Shown piece by piece: positions 3,895-40,195 of a DNA stretch of 64,000 nt. The translations under genes and the position numbers were made by a program. Numbering within the stretch: position 1 is the first letter of the stretch; each line of letters begins with the position of its first letter. The notes under the pieces are model-generated. The model did no database searches. It was not told the origin of the DNA and saw nothing but the letters and a program-made list of their open reading frames with translations. The stretch covers positions 4,683,501 through 4,747,500 of the forward strand of contig NC_091677.1 in assembly GCF_042453785.1 (NCBI RefSeq), in the 5' to 3' direction. Origin of the DNA: Malus domestica. Taxonomy: Eukaryota > Streptophyta > Magnoliopsida > Rosales > Rosaceae.

Positions 3895-4810
3895 GAATTT
3901 TTTTTTTTTTTTTACTGAAACCCCTTCTCTAAAAAAAATGTATATATCCACGTGGACCCACGTGACGCCAAATCATTGTCCACGTTGGTGCCATATCACA
4001 GTTAAAAGAAGACTTAATAGTTTGACTAACGGATGTATAAGACTGTCCCAAAATTTACACCTTAGGTATGACTCTGGGACGAAACAAACTTGATGTACTA
4101 AATGTTGAAAACCACAAAATATGATGGTAGTAAACAGAGATTTACCCTAAATTTTAAATATGTTTCAAAATTAAAATAAATAAATAAATTAAAAAGTTAA
4201 CTTTAGTTAGTTAGTGAGACACATATCAAGTTATAAGTTGGGTGGTGAGCATATTCTATAGTTAAGAGTGGTCAGCAAAAATGATCATTTTTTATGAAGT
4301 GCAAATATCTTCTTATTTACACTACACAAAATATAAAGAAATTTAATATATAAAGAAGAATTGTAGTGTAGAATTTCAATTTTCCAAATAGTATTGTGTA
4401 AGCTCACTCACGTGTTGATTTTAATATGAACTTATGTTTTTTTACGTCATTCAACATGCGTTGTTTATGTCTTAAGCTTAAATGACCCCACATATGAGGG
4501 GTGTGTTTGGAGGGGTGCGTTTAGAGTGATAACATTATTGAATTAAATAATTAGTTGTTATGGAGAAATGAATCAAAGAAGATCAGATCGGCATGAAAAT
4601 GTATAAATATAATTACTTTCTGCCACTTTAGTAAAATGTAATTTTTAAAAATATTTGATATATTGGAGATGGAAACAAACAATTTATTAAACATTAATTG
4701 CATTACATTCGCATTATGTGATATGCTTCTAAAAGGATAATGCTAGAAAGACTAAAATTGTAGAAAAATTTTATAAAGTAAATGATGTGTCATAGTATGA
4801 ATGATCACGT
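3895..4810. other. Intergenic region beside MULE and BAHD gene
   Basis: No coding sequence is supported here. The left part (3895-4130) may include the outer end of the MULE. The segment 4296-4503 is a divergent copy of 17325-17515 and is described with the BAHD relics. Confidence 0.5.
4296..4503 (+). repeat. BAHD 3'-flank duplicate, copy A
   Basis: About 200 bp downstream of the BAHD stop match 17325-17515 in the same orientation, with scattered substitutions (shared blocks such as CTACACAAAATATAAAGAAA and GTGTTGATTTTAATAT). This marks an old segmental duplication including the BAHD locus. Confidence 0.8.
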
Positions 4811-4895: not shown

Positions 4896-6257
4896 TCAAA
4901 GGTCTTCGATTCCTTTAGCAAATAAAGAAGCAAAAACCTCCATACATTGTTTTTTCAAAACAACCCCAATCTCGATACTACCATCGCCATCTTTGCTATC
5001 TGAGAAAGAGATAGCCCCGGTCCTATCAATCGTAACGACTTCGCTCTTCCTTGGCCTTCCCCATCCAAAATCAGTATCATAAATCCTAAACCGGTGTGAA
5101 CCAGCAACAGAAAAAAGTTTATCGGCTTGTGGTTGCATAATTTCCATCCAAGCCTCCGCCCCATTCAGAAGTCGATTATTTAAACCTTCTAGGGCTTCAC
5201 TGATTGCATTTACAGCCATAACCAGCCCGTCTTCTCCAAGTATGCCTTCGCTTTCTGCAACTGCTATGCGTGGGGCTATGCAGTTTCCAAAATAGTTTTC
5301 AGATATTTGTGGGTCCAATCGAGACCTACAATCCACACTAAAAATCAATCGTATTTTTTCAGATTTGAATTCCTCTGCCTTGACTAAGCAAATCCATGCA
5401 TACGCAGTTGCGACGCAAAACGTGGACAAATGAACCGATTGATGTTGTTGTTTCTTCTCTTTCACCAACTGCCTTATTGCTTCAATTTTGGTTGGTGTGA
5501 ACTGGAAGCACCCTCGAACCGAGTCTGGTTGTGGTGCTTTAAATTGGAAAGGCATCAAGCTACGATTGTTGGGTCCCTCCAAATCCATATTTAGAAAGTG
5601 GTTCGAATAAATTAAGTCGATCCTGGTCGGGTCAGGGATGACCCTTCGGTCGTAAAATGGTTTGAGCTGGTCTGGTACCAAATCGGATTCGTGTTTACAT
5701 ATGTAAGCCCATGATTTCACAAACATGGTTGACATCTTGCCGTCTAGGGCAGCATGGTGCACGGATGTTCCAATAGAAAAGCCGTTGTTTGGGAAGAGAG
5801 TGATTTGCAACGCAAGTGCTGCGGCTTTTTCGTGACAAACTTCCAATCGGGGCACGAGAGGATGGTATTCTTTGGCTTCAATGTTAAAGCTGTTGCTTGA
5901 AACTAGGTGGTGGAAATCAGCATCGGACTCAGCTACAGTGACCGAAACGGCGTCCCCTCGGAGGTAACTGAGGATTGGTTTAGGGGAGTCTTGGGGCCAA
6001 GTGATGTTTCCTGCTAAAGGTGGAAAGTGGTGGAGGGTAAGAGATAACGATGTTTTGAGCTTTGGAAGTATAGAATCGAAGAAGAATGTGTTTTTTGAGG
6101 AAGACAATATTTCGTAGAAGTAAAGGCGTTGGATGGGTGGAAACTTTAACCAAATTATGTCGAAGAAAGTTAGAGGAAGAGAGAACTCTTGATCTGCATG
6201 TTGTGGAGCAACTCTGCAAATTTCAACTATTTTGACTGAGTTATTTGGGTCTGCCAT
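4896..6257 (-). CDS. BAHD acyltransferase (phenolic glucoside malonyltransferase-like)
   Basis: The 453-residue, intronless reading frame is a complete BAHD-family acyl-CoA-dependent acyltransferase, cytosolic in known members. The catalytic HXXXD motif is H168-A-A-L-D172 and the structural DFGWG motif is at 396-400, both intact. The YFGNC motif at 322-326 is typical of the clade that malonylates or aromatically acylates flavonoid, anthocyanin and phenolic glucosides. Length is normal for the family (about 430-460). The ATG at 6257 gives the usual N-terminus (MADPNNSVKIVE). A TATA-like stretch on the minus strand lies at about 6296-6308, rather close to the ATG. Family membership is near certain. 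The glucoside acceptor and malonyl-CoA donor are inferred from clade motifs, and an aromatic acyl donor remains possible. The gene is the only intact member of what looks like a decayed local tandem cluster. Confidence 0.93.
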   Translation of the reverse strand: MADPNNSVKIVEICRVAPQHADQEFSLPLTFFDIIWLKFPPIQRLYFYEILSSSKNTFFFDSILPKLKTSLSLTLHHFPPLAGNITWPQDSPKPILSYLRGDAVSVTVAESDADFHHLVSSNSFNIEAKEYHPLVPRLEVCHEKAAALALQITLFPNNGFSIGTSVHHAALDGKMSTMFVKSWAYICKHESDLVPDQLKPFYDRRVIPDPTRIDLIYSNHFLNMDLEGPNNRSLMPFQFKAPQPDSVRGCFQFTPTKIEAIRQLVKEKKQQHQSVHLSTFCVATAYAWICLVKAEEFKSEKIRLIFSVDCRSRLDPQISENYFGNCIAPRIAVAESEGILGEDGLVMAVNAISEALEGLNNRLLNGAEAWMEIMQPQADKLFSVAGSHRFRIYDTDFGWGRPRKSEVVTIDRTGAISFSDSKDGDGSIEIGVVLKKQCMEVFASLFAKGIEDL

Positions 6258-8900: not shown

Positions 8901-8959
8901 GAGTAATGAAGAGGAAGAACGGCCAACTACCGACAACAATAGCATTAATGGCGAGAAGT

Positions 8960-8984
8960 GTGAAATCCCATTCCTGGATTTCAC
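8960..8984 (+). other. Hairpin at the solo-LTR left terminus
   Basis: GTGAAATCC at 8960-8968 and GGATTTCAC at 8976-8984 form a perfect 9-bp stem with a 7-base loop, starting one base inside the LTR end. Confidence 0.75.
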
Positions 8985-10985
8985 TGTAGTAATCTACGTA
9001 TTTGTATTATTGAGATTTTATATTATTTTTCAGGAATTTATAATAATTTATTTGAATTGAGGTTTTAATTAAACTAGTTATGAGGGTTGAAGTTTCGAAA
9101 TTAATTATTTAAATTCCGTAGACCTTTCGAGGGCATAATTTATATTTTTGAATAGAGCTCAATCTCACGAACGCGTAGGCGAAAACCGTTCGTGAAATGG
9201 AGTTATAACGAAGAAATTAGAGATGTTTTAGTTGTTGAGAAATAAATAAATAAATGTTTAGATGTTGCCAAGTGGCAGCAAGGAGAGAGTGCTGGAAAGA
9301 AAGAAGGGGAGCAACCCAATCAGAAAGGGGAGCAAGGAGGGGAAAGAAGAGAGGAAGAAAGGGGGAAAACGGGTTGACCCGCATTCCCCATCAAACCTGC
9401 GTGATTTTCCGACCATTTTTCGTCGGTTTTCCGGCGATCCATACCCCATCATCACCTGAAAACACCATCCCGCTTCTTCTCCTTCATTGATCATCAAATA
9501 TTCGACGGGATTAGGCCCGTTTTGGGATGTACGATGACGACAGCACCATAAGGTGCTTGGTGATAATTCGCCAATTTTGAATGAAATTTTGTCGACTTCC
9601 ACCACCCTTAGACTCCCCATGAGCCCTGGAACAAAGCCCAATCATCTATAGGGGCGGCGAAACACCGAGGAAGGAGAATCGAAGCTCACCCATTCTAGGG
9701 TTTCCGGCGGGTTTGAGTGGAATTGGTGACTTTCCCGCCCAAATTGGCCTTGGTCATAGGTATGAAACTTGCTCTAATCATTGAAATCTTCATTTCTGCA
9801 AAATTTGGTAATTTTTAGAAATAGTTGAATTTTCTGGCGAGTCGAGGCGGCCAACCGTCACCTGCGGCGGTTTGAGCGGCAGCGCGTGGTCAGTGGGTTG
9901 ACGATGTCTTTCTAAGTCCAATTAGATGCATTGAATTCATAATTGAAATCCGTATGAAGTGGTTTGATTGTTTGAACTTAGTTTCATTATGATACATGAC
10001 TTGATCAAAATTTGAATCGACGATTCGACCGGTGGATTATCACCAAACTTTAATGAGTTATGGAACATAATATTTGAGGATAGCTAGAACTAACGGATCC
10101 GGAATCCGATATACGGATCTTTCCGAATTGGATTTCTAAGTTAGTAAAATTAATTGTTGAACGCCTCTTGATTTGGCAATTGACGGAGATCCGTCCGTTG
10201 GATCATAATGAAATTTTAGTATGTGGTTCTAGAAGTGTAATGTGTATTTTGGGAAGTGACAGATCAAAAATATGATAGGCGGATCTTCCAGTTTAGATTT
10301 CTAGGGTTGTGAACGGTACTATCGACCTTGATCGACGATTGGCTCTTTAGTCAACTAGTCCAAGTTCTTCTAGTGTGTCAGCTATCGTAGAGTGTGGTTG
10401 AGATTTCATGGAACTTGATGGGCTCATTGTGGTGGCGTGTCCTTCTCGCTTGACGCATGTCTCGAACCTTTTATAAAGTTAAAATTAGTATTATTAGAGG
10501 CTCCGTGAGGCTTTGCGGCTTATCTCGGTGAGTTACTTTAATATATGTGATATGGTGATTACCCGATTCTTTATATTAGTATCCTCTGTGGATATGACAT
10601 GGTTTTATAAATGTGTTTTCTGTTAAAATGTGATTCTTTTATGATTGGCCATCGATCTATTTTCATTAAATGTGATTTTTATATATTTAGCCATAGACCT
10701 ATGTTTATGAAACATGATTTGGCTAGTGTACTGTTGATGGTTGTGATATATGTGTGTTTAATTATCTCTTTTTAGCAATGTGAATGATAAGTATGATAAA
10801 TGCTATGACTATGTGATCTTAGAATCCTATTAGAAGTATTATGTAGAATTTATATGATTGTGTGATGTATTAGTTGGTGGCCATGAGAAGTTAATGGTGT
10901 AGTGACTACGTTGTAACCCATAGGGGTTGAATTGTGGGTAGGTTGTGTGTTGAATTTCCTACACCATGTAGCAGTGGTACATGGA

Positions 10986-11486
10986 TGATCCTGCTTGGTT
11001 AATCCGCATTGGGGGACCATACTATATGTGGATTGCGCTTGGTTAATCCGCGTTGGGCGATCCTTATGGCTATTTATACTTAGGGGTGATCATGCTTGGT
11101 TAATCCGCGTTGGGTGATCACTGCCTAACAATTCTGTAGGTGTGACTCTGCTTGGTTAATCCGCATTAGGGGATCACTACCTACTTGATTATCTTGACTC
11201 TGCTTGATTAATCCGCATTGGGGGGTGACTAGTGGTCCTGCTTGGTTAATCCGCTTTAAGGGACCATAATATGTATGGATCGCGCTTGGTTAATCCGCGT
11301 TGGACGATCCTTATGGCCATGTATGCTTATGAGTGATCATGCTTAGTTAATCCACATTGGGTGATCACTTCCTAATACATGTGAGAGTGACTCTGCTTGG
11401 TTAATTTGCATTGAGGGGGTCACTGCCTACTTGGTAATTTTTTCGTGATGGCTCTACTTGGTTAATCCGCTTTGGGGGGCCACTTC
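10986..11486 (+). repeat. Ten-copy tandem array of hairpin-like monomers
   Basis: Ten monomers about 45-57 bp apart share the core CTTGGTTAATCCGC followed by a G-rich run. Monomers 1-5 and 6-10 correspond one-to-one, giving a higher-order period near 245 bp. Each core is flanked by short arms that are mostly complementary to each other, though the arm sequence differs by monomer type: GGATCG/CGATCC, GTGATCA/TGATCAC, TGGTCC/GGACCA, AGTGAC/GTCACT and TGGCTC/GGGCCA. Several mismatches are T opposite G, which pair as U-G in plus-strand RNA. Monomers 4 and 5 pair poorly. The array is not CRISPR: it has no unique spacers and lies inside an LTR in a plant genome. Confidence 0.8.
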
Positions 11487-13011
11487 CTGTTTGGTTACTT
11501 ATGTAGACTTCGGCCGAACTGGCATCCCTCTAACCCTAGTTTTTAGTGTATTGATGAACTATGGATTTGAGAATCTTGTGGTTTGAATTAGAAAAATCGT
11601 TGGATGTCTGGGTGACTCATTCGGAGTTTTCAGCGACTTAACTATGAATTCATAAAAATATGATTTTATAGTCTATAAACCGTGATCGATGGTCTGTTTT
11701 TATTTATTATCACATATGTTGTATTATTGTCACTCACACAAGCTTCGCAACCTATCCGAGTTCTTGATGCCAATGTACCATTCCTATGGTGTAGGCACTG
11801 ATTGTACAAATGTCAGGCCTTAAGAGATTACAAGAGGTCACTTGGTATTTTTTGTTGGATTCCGTTGAGTGGTCCAAAATCCCTACTCTTGCTCATTTCC
11901 ATAAAGGTAGTCCGACCCTAGAATCGAGTGAATATGAATTGCTCACATTAGACATTATGTATCAATTAAACTTATCATGTTAATACTTGGAATCTAGGTG
12001 GGAAATTATGTAGGGTTCCTTTATTAAAATTTGTGAATTGATATGGGACCTTATTGATTAAATAACATGGTAACTATTGATATCTTGCATCTTTGATTTT
12101 TTTAGGATTGATTAATTAGAATGATTGTGGAATGGTGTGGGATATGATTGTTATTATTATGATTAGTGTCGTTGCTCAATGTGGCTTGAGAATAATATTG
12201 TGCTTTGTTGGTTCTTGGATATGTTACATGTTGTGGAATAAGGTTTCATGTTGAAAGCATAGTGATTTATATGATGGATGAAGTGGAAATGTTGATTGTC
12301 ATATTGGATTGTTATGTAGCCCTGAATCTAGTACTTCCATACTTGTCAAGTTCTAATAATTGATTGAGGAATGTTATATCTTTCGACTTGAACATACTGT
12401 GGTAAATGTAGATGGGTAGTGAATAATGAACTACGAATGGCTTGATCCCTATTTAGGGTACGTAGGCAGTCTAACGAAGATGTTAGATGCAGCCATAAAG
12501 ACTATGAAGAATTATTACGCAGTTGGATCTTAAGTTATGTTTTGCCTTTTCCCGGAGGCGGGGTATGTTAGAGATATGGGTATTTGGTGAAGTCACGTGT
12601 CGATCCTGGACGTATATCGGGATCGGGGCCTGATAAGAAGAATGATAAGCTCATTAGGACATGTACCTACATCCTTCAATTCTCTTTGTAGTTTGTGTGT
12701 ACTTGCAACAAGGGTTACAAAAAGAAGCTGGACGGAAAAAACAAGGGAACTTTAACGAAAAGCTCCCGGTATTGTTCATTTTAACGAAAAACCATATTTT
12801 TACACTAAAAAGTCAATTCTGGTAAATCATTAAAACTTAAAGTTTTCAAGCCATTTTCATTAGTTTTCCTAAAAAACAAAGAAGAGGAAAATTCCAGTTG
12901 TAAAGTTAGGTAGGGTTTCAACTGTTTATTTATCGTACACATCAGTACAGATAGCTCAAGCCACACGTCACATTTAAAGGGTTGGAGTTGGTCTAAGAAG
13001 TAAGTATGAAT

Positions 13012-17085: not shown

Positions 17086-17324
17086 TTATAATTGATGTCA
17101 ATAATGTCCTTAATTCCTTTTTAAAGCCGACCATATGGTTTGGTGGGTCATTTTTTATTTTTTGGGACTATAAGTCTTGCAACTTACTGTTATTAAATTC
17201 AAACATGATAATGTCAGTCACATGCATTAGTAGAACTTGTGAATTCCACTGACATCAAATTTAAGTAATACTCTATAAAATAAGGCAAATTTGAGATTTA
17301 TCAACCAATTTTATGAATTGCGAA

Positions 17325-17515
17325 TATCTTCTTACTTACACTACACAAAATATAAAGAAATTTAATATATAAAGAAAATAGTAGTGTAGAACTTTAATTT
17401 TCTTAATAGTATCGAGTAAGTTAACTCATGTGTTGATTTTAATATTAACTCACGTTTTGCACGTCATTCAAAATGTGTTGTTTAAGTGTTATACTTAAAT
17501 GATCCAAACGTGAGA
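17325..17515 (+). repeat. BAHD 3'-flank duplicate, copy B
   Basis: This is the partner of 4296-4503. It lies just to the right of a BAHD N-terminal relic, the position expected for the downstream flank of the next copy in a tandem array of minus-strand genes. Confidence 0.8.
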
Positions 17516-23677: not shown

Positions 23678-24820
23678 ATGATTAAGAGTCCCATTACTGA
23701 AGCAGATTTGCAAGAAGCAGGAGCTGGCAGTTCAAGTCGTGATGACGAAGCCAATAAAGTTTCATCAAACCCTAATTTATCTCGTCCATCAACTCCATGG
23801 CTAAGGTTGAAGGACCCAAGGATTGTGCGTGTGTCCCGAGCTTTTGGAGGGAAGGACAGGCATAGCAAGGTTTGCACCATAAGAGGACTTCGAGATCGGC
23901 GGGTGAGGCTATCGGTACCTACTGCAATCCAATTGTATGATCTTCAAGAAAGGCTTGGTCTTAACCAGCCTAGCAAGGTTGTCGATTGGTTGCTTGATGC
24001 CGCAAAGCATGAAATCGATGAACTTCCTCCGCTGCCAATGCCATCACCTGGGAGTTTTGGTCTAAATCATCCATCATTAGGGCTCACTTCATCTCATGGT
24101 GACCAAACCAATGCTCATGCTCAGTTATCTCATAATCATAGTGGAGAAGGCCCTAGCAGTGGAATAGATAGATCAAATTTTTGGCCTACTGATTCGGATG
24201 CTCTTTGGCGAGCAAAGTCGAAAGAAATTGTAAGAGCCACAAGAAATGAGGACGAGGGAAATCAGAAAGATAATCTTGGAATATCAGATGATCAAGAACA
24301 AGCAGGCAATAATGTTGATGGTAATTCATCAAACACGTTCTTGAGAAGTAATACCAACCCTCCATTCTTTCCAGGTCTTCTGAATAGTTCTACGAATATG
24401 CCTTATGCTTATCATAATTGGGATCATTCTCATCAGACTTCAAATTTTCCACTATCTCAATTAGGAAGCCATGGATTCCAATCCCAAACTACAGATCTCC
24501 ACAATTTCCTTAATGTTCTCTCGTTGCCATCCACATTGTCTTTATCAACGACACAATCTTATTTTCCTTCGCATAACACAGCGGCTACAGGAGAGCTGGA
24601 TCCAAGACAATTCAACCACTTGCAAATGCTAAACTCTAGTAGTAGTACTAGTACTTCACAAAACCTATTGCCCAATTTTCTTTCTACACCAGCTCTATAC
24701 CCTAGTAGCCAAACTCTGAGAGCACCCCATTTGAGTATGGTGACTAAGCTTGTGCATTCTTCAGACAACAATGGCAGTGGTCATCACCCAAATAAAAATC
24801 AGGAGCCTCCGTCTCGATGA
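23678..24820 (+). CDS. CIN-class TCP transcription factor (TCP5/13/17-like)
   Basis: This intronless frame encodes 380 residues. The TCP bHLH-like DNA-binding domain spans about residues 58-115: basic region [20 protein letters not shown], helix I ([16 protein letters not shown]), then loop and helix II ([17 protein letters not shown]). The basic region is of the class II type. The preceding [19 protein letters not shown] and following DELPPLP are typical of the TCP5/TCP13/TCP17 subclade, which shapes leaf and petal growth and shade responses. I see no miR319-like target in the 3' half, as expected for this subclade. The C-terminal two thirds is Ser/Asn/His-rich and likely disordered activation sequence. 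The ATG at 23678 is preceded by stops in frame, and a leader intron may end near 23530. Subclade assignment is by motif memory. Confidence 0.92.
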
Positions 24821-27560
24821 TGCGTAGCTGATGCTTTTAATTCAAAGACTCATGAAAGCCTAAGCTTGCTTTATGTCTCAGATTGGTCGTCTTTTGTAAA
24901 TGGGAGCTAGGTTTAGTGCAGACAAAGGTACAAACACACATCGTACTTTACCGGGTTTAGTCGGTTTACTTAATGTCCATTTCAGATTAAAGATACCACA
25001 TATGATTTGATTTCCTACTTAATTTTGGTTTATATTATGCGACATTTGCATTTAAATTAAAGTAAAAAGAAAGAGTTTTCGAGCATAAATTTGATTGAAG
25101 CATTGTTAATGGTGTGAAGCTACATCGTACATTCATTATTCATTTTTAATTGAATCTTGTTAGTTAGATTTCGGGGTGTATGCTACGTTGTTAGTTAGAG
25201 ACAAATACGTTTTTTATAACTAATTTATATGCCAATGGGAATGTGCGCCATGGCATTCTCTCCTTGGAAATGGTCTTATACAACTTCATGAGATTGTTCT
25301 CTGTAACTATCATTAATTTTTCTCTCTAACTAGCTAGCAACTGCAAACAAAGATTATTTACCAAAAAAAAAAAAATAACTGCAAACAAAGATTTAAAACC
25401 CGAGAGAGAGAGAGAGAGAGAGAGATTGTAGGAGGTGTGACCTGAAATGTGTCTAAGCTTGCTTTCTTTTTAATTTCTGCTAGACATCAGGCAGGACTGC
25501 AAACATGAAAGGATGGAGTGAATGTAATAGTGTACGTTATTACCTGTTGAATAGGCTTCTGAAGAGAAGGAGGTAAAGTGAGAGAGAGAGATTGTAGGAG
25601 GTGTGACCTGAAATGTGTCTAAGCTTGCTTTCTTTTTAATTTCTGCTAGACATCAGGCAGGACTGCAAACATGAAAGGATGGAGTGAATGTAATAGTGTA
25701 CGTTATTACCAGTTGAATAGGCTTCTGAAGAGAAGGAGGTAAAGTAAGTACGAAGATAGCAGCCTGCAGGCTTTAATTAATTAACGACCTAGAGTGAGGC
25801 GCATTATGAGAGGGATAGTTGAGAGCATAGCTAGTGTCAAAATCACATACACAAGATCCAACAACATAATTATATATATGTATGCTAGTTATATAGCTAA
25901 GGGTTATGAGTGTTTTGTGTTGATTATTACCTATATGTTGGAGTACTAGTGCAGATAATTTGAATCTGGTATTAAAAGAATATCAATTTTAATTTTAGTT
26001 ACTTATACATATTGTTATTATCGCATACTGTCTTTGTTTTTTGTTGTAAGCGACTGAAGTGGTGTGCTTGAATATAACCAGTTTATATTTAACCCCATCT
26101 TGGTAGTTTCTAGTCCACCGTCAAGAAACAAGTAAAGTCCTTAACATGCAAGGCATTAATAAGAACCAAACTTGGCACAATCCTTTATAAAAGAAGTTTT
26201 ATTACTTGTGGTGCAAGAACTCAATATACATACAATCTGTTCTAAAAACCTTTCTGTTGGCAGAAGCCAACGTACGTTTGATAATCAACAAACCAAAAGA
26301 TTCACTAAGCCTCTTCAAAGGTCAAATTGTGAAGCCTATATATACCAACTGAGAAGGCATTTCCCTTTCTACAATACACTCGTGTATGAGATGCACTAGT
26401 GTTTGAACGGCTAGATTGAGATTGTCAAAATCCAAAGAAAGTAGAGAAAGAAAAAGGGTATGCATAAACCATTCCATTTCTACAATAACTTGTGTATGAG
26501 ATGCAGTGTCTGAACGGTTAGATTAAAATTCTCAAAATCGAACTATTCAATGCACTAGAATATAGGATCCACGGGTGCATTGTAGAATTTTCACCATAAC
26601 ACGATATACATGTTTGTGTATGAATTGGTTAGTTAAGATAAAGGCCTTCATCACGAGTGGATGAGCAGTACTGCAAGTAGTTAGAACTGCAAAAGCTTTA
26701 TGTGTTGCCTCCCTGATTAATTTGTTTTACATCGATATCATAGTTCAGTACTTTACAGGAGGTGCAGGACAGTGGTAGCACTGCTCCATGCAGATGTCGC
26801 ATGATAACCAAGAAAAGAGGATTTACCAAACAAAACAAATAAAATTACAAAACCTAGAGAAGTGAAGTCGATCTGGTCATTTCTGGCAAAGCAGTAGTAA
26901 AAGAAAAATAACTCGTACTTCCCGTTCTTTCTGTTCTTTCTATAGTTCCCGTGAATCCAAAACCATTCATACTTTTTGATCTTGTTTCGTCAATCTCGCG
27001 TCACTGGTCGTCAAGTTTTGATTTGTTTTTTTTCTTTTATCATAGTTCACATCTTTCTACCCTAGTAGTGTTGGTGAGAATTTGAAGGCAAAATTGCAGT
27101 TTTTCCTCGGTACAACATGCATTGAGTGTCATTCCACAATTGACCGTCTTAGAACAAATTCAACCTTTTAATCCAACAATTTAAAAAACGTTGGCACTTA
27201 GTGCTTGTAGGTACCGAAAAAAAATCAACAAAATTGGCTTTATTAACAATTGTTCAAACGACTTAAAATTGGTGGCTAATGATTCCGGAATTTGATCCAA
27301 CTAGCTTACAAAAACGTCAGCACTTAGTGCGTGTGGCTTTATCAACAATCAGAGCACAAATTAGTCGATGATCAAATGAGTTATGAATTTATTAAAATGA
27401 TTTCCGCACTCATCTTTCTTTATCCTATATTTTTGGTTGACAGGTTGAATAAATAACAAAAACGATGAGAAAGAACGCAGGAGGATAAAATGAGAGCGAA
27501 AATTAGTACTCAATTTATTTAATGGCAGCTTTTTATGAGTAAAAACAAGTAATTAGAAAA
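24821..27560. other. Intergenic region between TCP and TAF8
   Basis: The first part is TCP 3' UTR. The stretch holds a 166-bp tandem duplication (25414-25745). It also has a weak repeated pair at about 26370-26440 and 26478-26545 (sharing GTGTATGAGATGCA) and another short pair (CACTTAGTGC) at 27196 and 27318. No other gene is seen. Confidence 0.5.
25414..25745. repeat. 166-bp tandem direct duplication
   Basis: Copies 25414-25579 and 25580-25745 are nearly identical; I noticed one difference (CCTGTTG versus CCAGTTG). Each begins with a (GA)n tract and ends GGAGGTAAAGT. The GA tract at the left (25402-25424) probably seeded unequal exchange or slippage. Confidence 0.95.
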
Positions 27561-37795: not shown

Positions 37796-39985
37796 ATACT
37801 ATTAGTAAGAATGGTAGCTTTCAAAGTAAAACTACACTTTGGCCTTTAGACTCGCTTCAGCGACCAATATATATAGAGGTGTGCTATCCACATACATTTT
37901 TTTACTTCTTACATATCCCTTGTTAATTTTTGTTTGTTGATCTTCTTTAATTCATTTGATCCGACGGCCGAAAACTGAAAAGGTGTGAAAGAAGAAAAAA
38001 AGAGTGTGTGGATATCACACCCATATATATAGAGTCCGTCTACCATACCTTAATAAAAAAAAAAAAGATATCGGTACAATTTAATTTAAACGACAAACTG
38101 TAATGCAATAACAATATTCAACTAAAATATAAAATATACGCAATATATAAATATATATATATATATATTGGATAAACTTAAAAACATGTTCATCTCCTCA
38201 GCCTTATGTCATCTATTATGTACTGGATCAAACCTTATCTCAGGATTGTGCTCTCTCGCGCATGAACATGATTATTTTCACAACTGCGATAAAACGTCAT
38301 TTACTTTTCTTAATGCATTTTTATGTGAATCTAATGGTTTAATTTCAAAATTTCCCTTATCGAGTTCTTGATAAATTTATTCAAGACAACATATAAACAA
38401 CGAAATTAATGGGGGCTGTATGTGTCATAAAAAAATGGGGGCAATATGTTATGTAATCTTCTGGCGTTGAAGGTGCTTGTATTCATCCAAATGAAGATCG
38501 TATCTACCTTCTGCACGTTTTGGAAACCCTAGCTAGATGCCTAGATACGTGTAGGTCTGAAAGTACTACATAGAACATATTTAGGGCCGTCTCTAAGATT
38601 TTGGGAGCCATGTGAAAAATTTATAAAAGTGCCCATTCTTAAGATAGTTTTTTTTCTTCAGAAAAAGTAAGACAATGTACTGATGCTAGAAAGCAATATT
38701 TTAAATCAAAACAAACTTAAGAGTCACTGATTGTAAATTTATAAATGTCATTAAATAATAAGTAAAAAGAGTTACAAACATAACCTTCACTTATTAATTA
38801 AAAGCACTTCAATCTTAAACAAGTAAACAAGAAAAAAAAAGCTTCAAAAACTCTAACTTCAAAGTTTCACTTCAACATATAGCATTATTATATCATAGAA
38901 TTGAAAAAAAAACTCATTTTTAGGGTGTTGTTATTAGCACTTCAAATACCTAATTGTACACTCCAAATTTTTATATTTAGCAAGAAAAAAATTTACACTT
39001 ACAAGGAGTCACAATGAAATTTTAAAGTGCTAATAAAAACAATTCTTACATATAAATTTTAGATGGAAATTTTTTTGAGGCCCTGTGTTATCACATCTTT
39101 CGCTTCTCCTCAACGCCCCCTCTAAACACATTATACACAGTTTTGTAAATATGTGTTGGACCACCCCTCTTTTGCTAATATGTACAAACTTAAGCTACTG
39201 CAGTCTGCAGCCATATACTTTGCTGTACGTGTTGGCATTGTGAAGAAAAATAACAAATAAGGTTGTAAAAAAAACAAACAAGTAGAAATGAAAAAAAAGG
39301 AACATTCTTGTGGATTCACTTATTCGGACATGCTTTTCCAATCAGCCATAAATCATAGAAATCTTTGTACACCTTTCTCTATCTGTCAGCTGATGCATTA
39401 ACATGATGGCATTATAATTTTCTACATATGGACCTAATAAATATGTTGAACAAAATTTACAAGTACGAATCAAACGTTTACTCTCGTTGGATTATTGTGT
39501 GCAATTAGGCACATCTTTTAGAAAAGAGACAAATAATTGCTATTCATGCATTAAAGTGTAAACCCTAGCAATGTACAAAGTAGTGTTCTCGGTCGAGGCG
39601 CAGTATACTGGATATTATGCCGACGTATTTCGATTAGAAACTCCCTCATCTAAATTTTCCTTTTCCATTTTTCTTAATGCTTTATTATTTTTTGCAAAAC
39701 GATAGCGTTAATGGGTTAAATAATGTTAGAGGATGAGGCAAATCGGTGGAAATCGAACCTATGCATGTTTATGCGTTTATTTCTGATTAGGTGCATGCAC
39801 ACAGCGCACGTTTTTGGTTAATTAAAATCGTGGTCTATATAGTAAAAGTGAGGACGCATTTAATAACCATTTTGTTTTATGTTTTCAATTTTTAATTTTT
39901 CTTTTTAGATATGAGAAAGGCATATATATGGGGAAAATGATGATGAAGAAGCGTGATGGAGAGAAGGAAAGAAAAAAGGAAGAAA

Positions 39986-40195
39986 AGATGAAAACAAAAT
40001 CTTAAATATGCAAACAATTTAAAATAGTTTTTTATGTTTTTAGTTTTCATTTTGTGTGGTTTTCCTTGTATATTTCTTCTATATCTCTAAAGATGAAAAC
40101 AAAATCTTGAATATGCAAACAATTTAAAATAGTTTTTTATGTTTTTAGTTTTCATTTTGTGTGGCTTTCCTTGTATATTTCTTCTATATCTCTCC
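39986..40195. repeat. 105-bp tandem direct duplication
   Basis: 39986-40090 and 40091-40195 are near-identical; I noted AAATCTTAAAT versus AAATCTTGAAT and GTGGTTTTCC versus GTGGCTTTCC. Confidence 0.95.

Follow-up and report, generated by a model that had tools for sequence, protein, structure and literature searches.

Tandem hairpins with a constant apical sequence and coupled stem arms in the long terminal repeat of a Malus domestica Ty3/gypsy retrotransposon

Within a 64-kb stretch of Malus domestica contig NC_091677.1 (positions 4683501-4747500, here called the window; the assembly comprises 651,096,769 bases in 19 contigs), a short core sequence is repeated in tandem, flanked by arms that differ from copy to copy and mostly remain complementary. 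The locus raises the question of whether these repeats form a structured RNA element and, if so, what that element would do for the long terminal repeat (LTR) that carries it. The hairpin evidence presented here is drawn from the sequence of this one plant genome.

A first-pass annotation of the window had described ten hairpin repeats, and ten monomers were indeed found at 10986-11485, with a spacing of 38-61 bp and cores lying between 10994 and 11470. With three mismatches or fewer allowed, the core CTTGGTTAATCCGC was matched 15 times in the window (3.9 expected); the ten matches in the array carried 0-2 mismatches, and the other five carried 3. The arm pairs quoted in that annotation were present as given, and the higher-order block duplication that it had placed at about 245 bp was recovered as a duplication of the first half of the array at an offset of 247 bp (87% identity over 143 nt). 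The monomers are:

10985-11020, + strand: hairpin monomer 1 (type A, one arm mutated)
11029-11064, + strand: hairpin monomer 2 (type B, GGATTG/CGATCC)
11086-11121, + strand: hairpin monomer 3 (type C, GTGATCA/TGATCAC, outer helix TTAGG/CCTAA)
11142-11177, + strand: hairpin monomer 4 (type D, outer helix GTAGG/CCTAC)
11194-11229, + strand: hairpin monomer 5 (type F-like, poorly paired in the window)
11232-11267, + strand: hairpin monomer 6 (type A, TGGTCC/GGACCA)
11276-11311, + strand: hairpin monomer 7 (type B, GGATCG/CGATCC)
11333-11368, + strand: hairpin monomer 8 (type C)
11387-11422, + strand: hairpin monomer 9 (type D/E)
11448-11483, + strand: hairpin monomer 10 (type E, TGGCTC/GGGCCA)

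In the middle stem of this array, 53 of 70 cells were Watson-Crick, compared with 38.6 on average and 46 at most over 60 permutations of the right halves among the monomers. RNAalifold recovered the stem from the ten monomers at -9.2 kcal/mol (permuted mean -1.4, best -7.4). Monomers 4 and 5 had been singled out as pairing poorly. Monomer 5 did give the worst fold (-9.0), but monomer 4 reached -18.6 because its outer helix (GUAGG/CCUAC) contributes, and monomer 1 was also weak (-10.9).

The array had been placed inside a ‘giant LTR’. It does lie inside an LTR, of 3,677 bp, which is a solo copy flanked on both sides by the 5-bp duplication AGAAG:

8959-12635, + strand: solo LTR (TGTGAAATCCC...GGGGCCTGATA) of a Ty3/gypsy element, with ends common to other copies
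8954-8958, no strand: left target site duplication AGAAG, flanking the solo LTR
12636-12640, no strand: right target site duplication AGAAG, flanking the solo LTR

This assignment was made because the ends are shared, 5-bp duplications flank both the window copy and other copies, and no second LTR copy was found within the 64-kb window. When 8961-12640 was used as a Blast query, the alignment began at query base 1 in at least 12 loci (among L009-L036), and alignments with other copies often stopped at 12627-12638. Duplications of 5 bp were present at the equivalent ends of several other copies, e.g., L028, L035, L038, L041 and L042. The LTR ends are of the TG..CA type; the window copy ends in TA, and most of its relatives end in CA, mostly as GTGACA.

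A related full-length copy (L043, contig C1) has LTRs at 21002029-21004779 and 21009764-21012400, the main segments of which are 93-96% identical. Its primer binding site (PBS), TGGTATCAGAG, starts a few bases past the first LTR; the solo LTR in the window has none. On the strand of the array, this relative encodes RVP_2 (aspartyl protease), RVT_1, RT_RNaseH, Integrase_H2C2 and SH3_Tf2-1, in the Ty3/gypsy order PR-RT-RNaseH-INT, an order seen in the relative only, the window copy being without an internal part. The integrase core domain rve fell below the cut-off in L043, and no chromodomain was found at the integrase C-terminus in the six pieces searched, in which SH3_Tf2-1 was present. As the PBS and pol of the related copy are on the same strand as the array, the array is in sense orientation.

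Elsewhere in the window, a 453-aa ORF (4896-6257, - strand) matched the Pfam family Transferase (PF02458), which we take to be of the BAHD acyltransferase type, and a 380-aa ORF (23678-24820, + strand) matched the TCP transcription factor family (PF03634). Recent-looking tandem duplications were seen at 25414-25745 (two copies of 166 bp, 99%) and 39984-40193 (two copies of 105 bp, 98%), and a dispersed 196-bp repeat at 4290-4485 and 17309-17502 (87% identical).

The array is spread through the genome. The exact 14-base core occurred 979 times (503 + 476), and its reversed control 0 times. Seventy-three sequences of the same family (family 1; the window and 72 loci) were scanned, and 652 monomers came from 72 of these (the window and 71 loci); a divergent family (family 2), found via one divergent array (L032), was represented by 38 scanned loci, 37 of which gave 236 monomers. 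Monomers were selected by a core with no more than three mismatches (four in family 2) and a neighbor within 130 bp, and pairing was never used; core conservation in these samples is therefore biased, and arm coupling is unbiased. Arrays contained 2-12 monomers, with medians of 10 (family 1) and 6 (family 2). In several monomers of the divergent arrays L027, L111 and L112 the loop TTGGTTAAT is replaced by TTGGTATAT, and many of the stems still pair; the L097 array repeats a block of three monomers at about 358 bp.

An array-blind sample was also assembled with the last 221 bp of the LTR, taking 12 of 39 other LTR ends and skipping loci already in the collection. Nine of the 12 stretches held 3-10 cores, all in sense orientation, and the other three held none in the stretch read. 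Among 34 copies, an ascertained sample in that they were fetched by the core, the best-shared part of the LTR was the array and about 270 bp downstream of it: a mean of 26-33 of the 34 copies was present per 80-bp bin over 10961-11760, compared with 0-22 elsewhere. Positions 10400-12000 had no match in plasmids, and an exact 20-base pattern had none in viral contigs or prokaryote genome contigs.

The relationship between the two arms was examined across monomer types. Clustering of family 1 on the spacer alone, with the arms excluded, gave six main types, the majority arms of which (-8 to -3 / +6 to +11) are TGGTCC/GGACCA, GGATCG/CGATCC, TGATCA/TGATCA, TGACTC/GGGTCA, TGGCTC/GGGCCA and TGACCC/GGGTCA. 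Of the consensus pairs in these six stems, 34 of 36 are Watson-Crick and 2 are U-G, a result reached by 2 of the 720 permutations of right arms among types, which is the lowest possible number because two types have an identical right arm. Types C, D and E are extended by an outer helix (TTAGG/CCTAA, GTAGG/CCTAC and AGG/CCT, respectively). New paired stems were found in divergent arrays (e.g., ACAGTCC/GGACTGT and GTGATCC/GGATCAC), many of them in family 2 among the matches listed; distinct perfect 7-bp stems numbered 11 in family 1, 9 in family 2 and 14 in total. Across 284 distinct family-1 arm pairs, a mean of 4.99 of 7 positions was Watson-Crick, compared with 3.96 ± 0.05 after shuffling. 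The stem arms are coupled, both between types and between the two families.

Coupling was then measured on monomers taken without regard to pairing: one at random from each family-1 sequence (72) and two from each family-2 locus (74), giving 146 rows. The middle stem was paired in 81.4% of cells (71.5% shuffled), and both sides had changed in 178 cells, compared with 66.6 ± 17.6 in shuffled alignments (none of 500 reached the observed value) and 17-52 in slid registers. The covariation score was 0.453, compared with 0.280 shuffled and at most 0.243 slid. Two cruder measures on the same rows did not separate them from the shuffles, double-change pairs being reached in 190 of 500 and further pair types in 264 of 500, and RNAalifold predicted no structure from the 146 monomers. 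Evidence for the outer helix is weak: 54.6% of its cells were paired compared with 43.2% shuffled, and a register slid by -3 equaled its double changes (129).

Mutual information over 651 monomers mainly reflected monomer type, and tree-preserving nulls with independently evolving columns were used instead (60 simulations per family). Middle-stem Watson-Crick cells numbered 3288 in family 1 (null 2202 ± 268, maximum 2837) and 993 in family 2 (null 527 ± 91, maximum 741). Pairing over the whole stem exceeded the tree null, but single pairs did not: in a tree-corrected G-test, stem pairs ranked second to fourth in family 1 with E of about 0.1-1.2 (best 0.13), no single column pair being significant, and no stem pair was among the top 22 in family 2. 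An inner stem at -2/+0 was no better paired than expected (141 Watson-Crick compared with 140 expected in family 2; rank 768 in family 1), so the apical region was left as an undefined constant motif.

Within single arrays, permutation of the right halves gave the real coupling a rank of 0.05 or less in 69 of 72 family-1 arrays and in 8 of the 29 family-2 arrays that have five or more monomers. The middle stem held more Watson-Crick pairs than the average permutation in 71 of the 72 family-1 arrays and in 24 of the 29 from family 2; these arrays share ancestry, and the per-array tests are accordingly not independent. Per-array RNAalifold found structure in family 1, and in family 2 it beat the permuted mean in 19 of 29 arrays.

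Changes within types gave a different picture. The count covered 560 of the 652 monomers (types A, B, B2, C, D, E and F), with clusters D2, F2 and F3, 52 unclustered monomers and pair -6/+9 of type E left out. Single stem changes produced G-U in 182 cases, A-C in 123 and other combinations in 141; double Watson-Crick changes numbered 14, compared with 12.5 expected if independent; and stem transitions numbered 305, compared with 509 predicted from rates outside. Taken one by one, genomic copies show roughly the decay that dead insertions would undergo, which is not positive evidence for selection, and the structural signal therefore resides in differences between types and families, i.e., in lineages that transposed. 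The proposal of a fixed-loop hairpin was thus supported in part: by stem covariation above shuffles between types and families, but not by any compensatory excess within types. Likewise, arm changes kept pairing above shuffles between types and families, but within types those that break it (123 A-C plus 141 other) outnumbered those that keep it (182 G-U).

Which strand would carry the structure was considered from G-U pairs and from folding energy. At pair -4/+7 the 146 rows held 60 CG, 57 UG, 18 UA and 11 of all other kinds. Without this pair, G-U stood to A-C at 49:44 and 42:27 in stems with at least five of seven Watson-Crick positions; the bias toward U-G over A-C noted in the first-pass annotation is therefore clear mainly at -4/+7. 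Real monomers folded better than their dinucleotide shuffles, with mean z-scores of -2.02 (sense) and -1.60 (antisense) in family 1 (230 of 652 monomers) and -1.16 (sense) and -0.89 (antisense) in family 2 (230 of 236); a comparison with shuffled monomers had been proposed in that annotation. Raw mean energies were -14.9 for sense, -9.4 for antisense and -10.3 for shuffled sense, with sense better in 636 of 652 monomers, figures that overstate the sense preference because the strand is G+T rich. RNA of the sense strand is likely to carry the structure, and the strand evidence is modest.

When the apical sequence is fixed and the stem is paired but free to vary, the usual explanation is that a loop is recognized on the helix that presents it. 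U3, R and U5 are each present at least once in the genomic RNA of an LTR element; the array should therefore be part of that RNA wherever the transcript starts, unless it is spliced out, and a cis-acting signal for packaging, dimerization or RNA fate is therefore favored. On balance, these observations lean toward a cis-acting RNA element, present in repeated copies in a Ty3/gypsy retrotransposon and folding in the sense transcript. Each monomer would form a 7-bp stem of free sequence, lengthened in some types by a 5-bp outer helix, and would present a near-constant apical region of about 22 nt (UG-CUUGGUUAAUCCGC-NNUNGG). Selection would act at the RNA level on transposing lineages. The constant region may be read by Gag/nucleocapsid or by a host RNA-binding protein, with several copies providing avidity; the most likely use would be to mark genomic RNA for packaging or dimerization, or to keep it unspliced or exported. 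It is from the sequence pattern that we infer this function, be it packaging or splicing control. The option of unspliced retention or export was included because the array sits between conserved splice-site-like motifs, which resemble the plant splice-site consensus:

9758-9763, + strand: 5' splice-site-like AG|GTAT (block AG|GTATRA), putative role; GT kept in 18 of 21 rows, counted by eye
10527-10533, + strand: 5' splice-site-like G|GTGAGT (G|GTGAGTGA), putative role, in a conserved block upstream of the array
11790-11795, + strand: 3' splice-site-like TGTAG|G (block TGTAG|GCA), putative role, downstream of the array; AG kept in 23 of 24 rows, by eye

These motifs raise the possibility of a leader transcript from the LTR in which the array falls within an intron. 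In this alternative the hairpins would regulate or loop out splicing, keeping the genomic RNA unspliced. All three motifs are held in conserved blocks, with the array between those at 10527 and 11790; at 10527, which 23 of 27 rows reach, GT was kept in 23 of 23 and GTGAGT in 18 of 23 (by eye), many of the local alignments there beginning at the G|GTGAGTGA motif itself. T content is 35-41% between 10527 and 11790, compared with 28% over the LTR's initial 799 bp, but it is still 36% past the acceptor-like motif. The motifs are also short and lie in blocks that are conserved anyway, and 3 of 21 rows lack the GT at 9758. A leader intron is judged unlikely.

A DNA-level role is quite unlikely. The core would then be a protein-binding site in an enhancer or chromatin array, and the arms incidental. 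Plant LTRs often hold repeated promoter motifs, GGTTAA in the core presumably resembles a GT-1 box, and the core is the most conserved part of the monomer, although it was also the search key. The coupled change of the arms and the 14 distinct perfect stems would be left unexplained by a DNA site. It is also decidedly improbable that the array is a passive tandem repeat, or satellite seed, in which a few functionless palindromic types were spread by block duplication. The 247-bp duplication is clear, arrays range from 2 to 12 monomers and types are shared by descent; however, the whole stem exceeds tree-preserving nulls that retain descent, and the array is kept in LTRs that are only partly alignable (in the ascertained sample) and in 9 of the 12 array-blind LTRs.

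Template switching during replication or reverse transcription can perfect inverted repeats, and the arms of such mutational palindromes would covary without selection. The arms are short and close, a suitable geometry, and the lack of compensatory excess within types fits this explanation. It is nonetheless very improbable, since U-G at -4/+7 is common in both families rather than converted to Watson-Crick, and the loop and the T at +2 (outside the search key) are conserved though arms and spacers vary between monomers of one array. A small-RNA precursor, one of the roles floated in the first-pass annotation, was rejected as unlikely, given a constant loop on a variable stem.

The cis-acting element favored here can be set beside known systems. 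Its host was likened to the Tekay/Del-like chromoviruses, which we take to be Ty3/gypsy elements with very long LTRs: it shares with them the 5-bp target site duplication and, in the relative, the PBS TGGTATCAGAG and the PR-RT-RNaseH-INT order, whereas the hairpin array in the LTR is a feature here, none being described in the partial texts of the literature matches listed. LARD elements are non-autonomous, with very long LTRs and structured non-coding parts. The very long LTRs are common to both, but here the structure is in the LTR and not in the internal part, and in place of the non-coding internal domain of a LARD the relative carries pol domains and the window copy has no internal part. 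Retroviral and phage coat-protein packaging hairpins also occur in several copies whose loop is constant while the stem varies; the present array, a candidate for such a role, differs in having about ten copies and in lying inside an LTR.

Structured RNA in plant LTRs has precedents in the excerpted texts on retrozymes, which carry hammerhead ribozymes in their LTRs (PMC9695139), and on Cassandra, which carries 5S sequence in its LTRs (PMC10853983). Structured RNA in the LTR is shared with these; here it takes the form of a tandem array. An Rfam scan of the window gave no family at gathering level, thus no hammerhead and no 5S rRNA-like match; with the cut-off relaxed to E of 1, the sole match was a snoRNA below threshold at 9933-10026, outside the array. 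No comparable hairpin array was described in the open-access titles and abstract openings among the matches listed, most subscription journals lying outside that scope. In the main text of a plant structured-RNA paper (PMC12218528), the words retrotransposon, transposable, tandem, Malus, Rosaceae and LTR are absent.

More tentatively, and with the likelihood tilted against it, the arrays may represent a new class of RNA element, in which tandem hairpins with a constant loop and free stem, placed in a leader intron or genomic leader and retained across families with partly alignable LTRs, would be bound multivalently so that full-length RNA is packaged or kept unspliced. To our knowledge, little is known about the selection of genomic RNA by LTR retrotransposons in plants. 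If the cis-acting reading is true, the array would offer a testable route to how that RNA is chosen and, with 979 exact cores in the genome, a handle for finding the protein that binds it, and an RNA structure would count among the best-conserved features of an LTR that otherwise changes fast.
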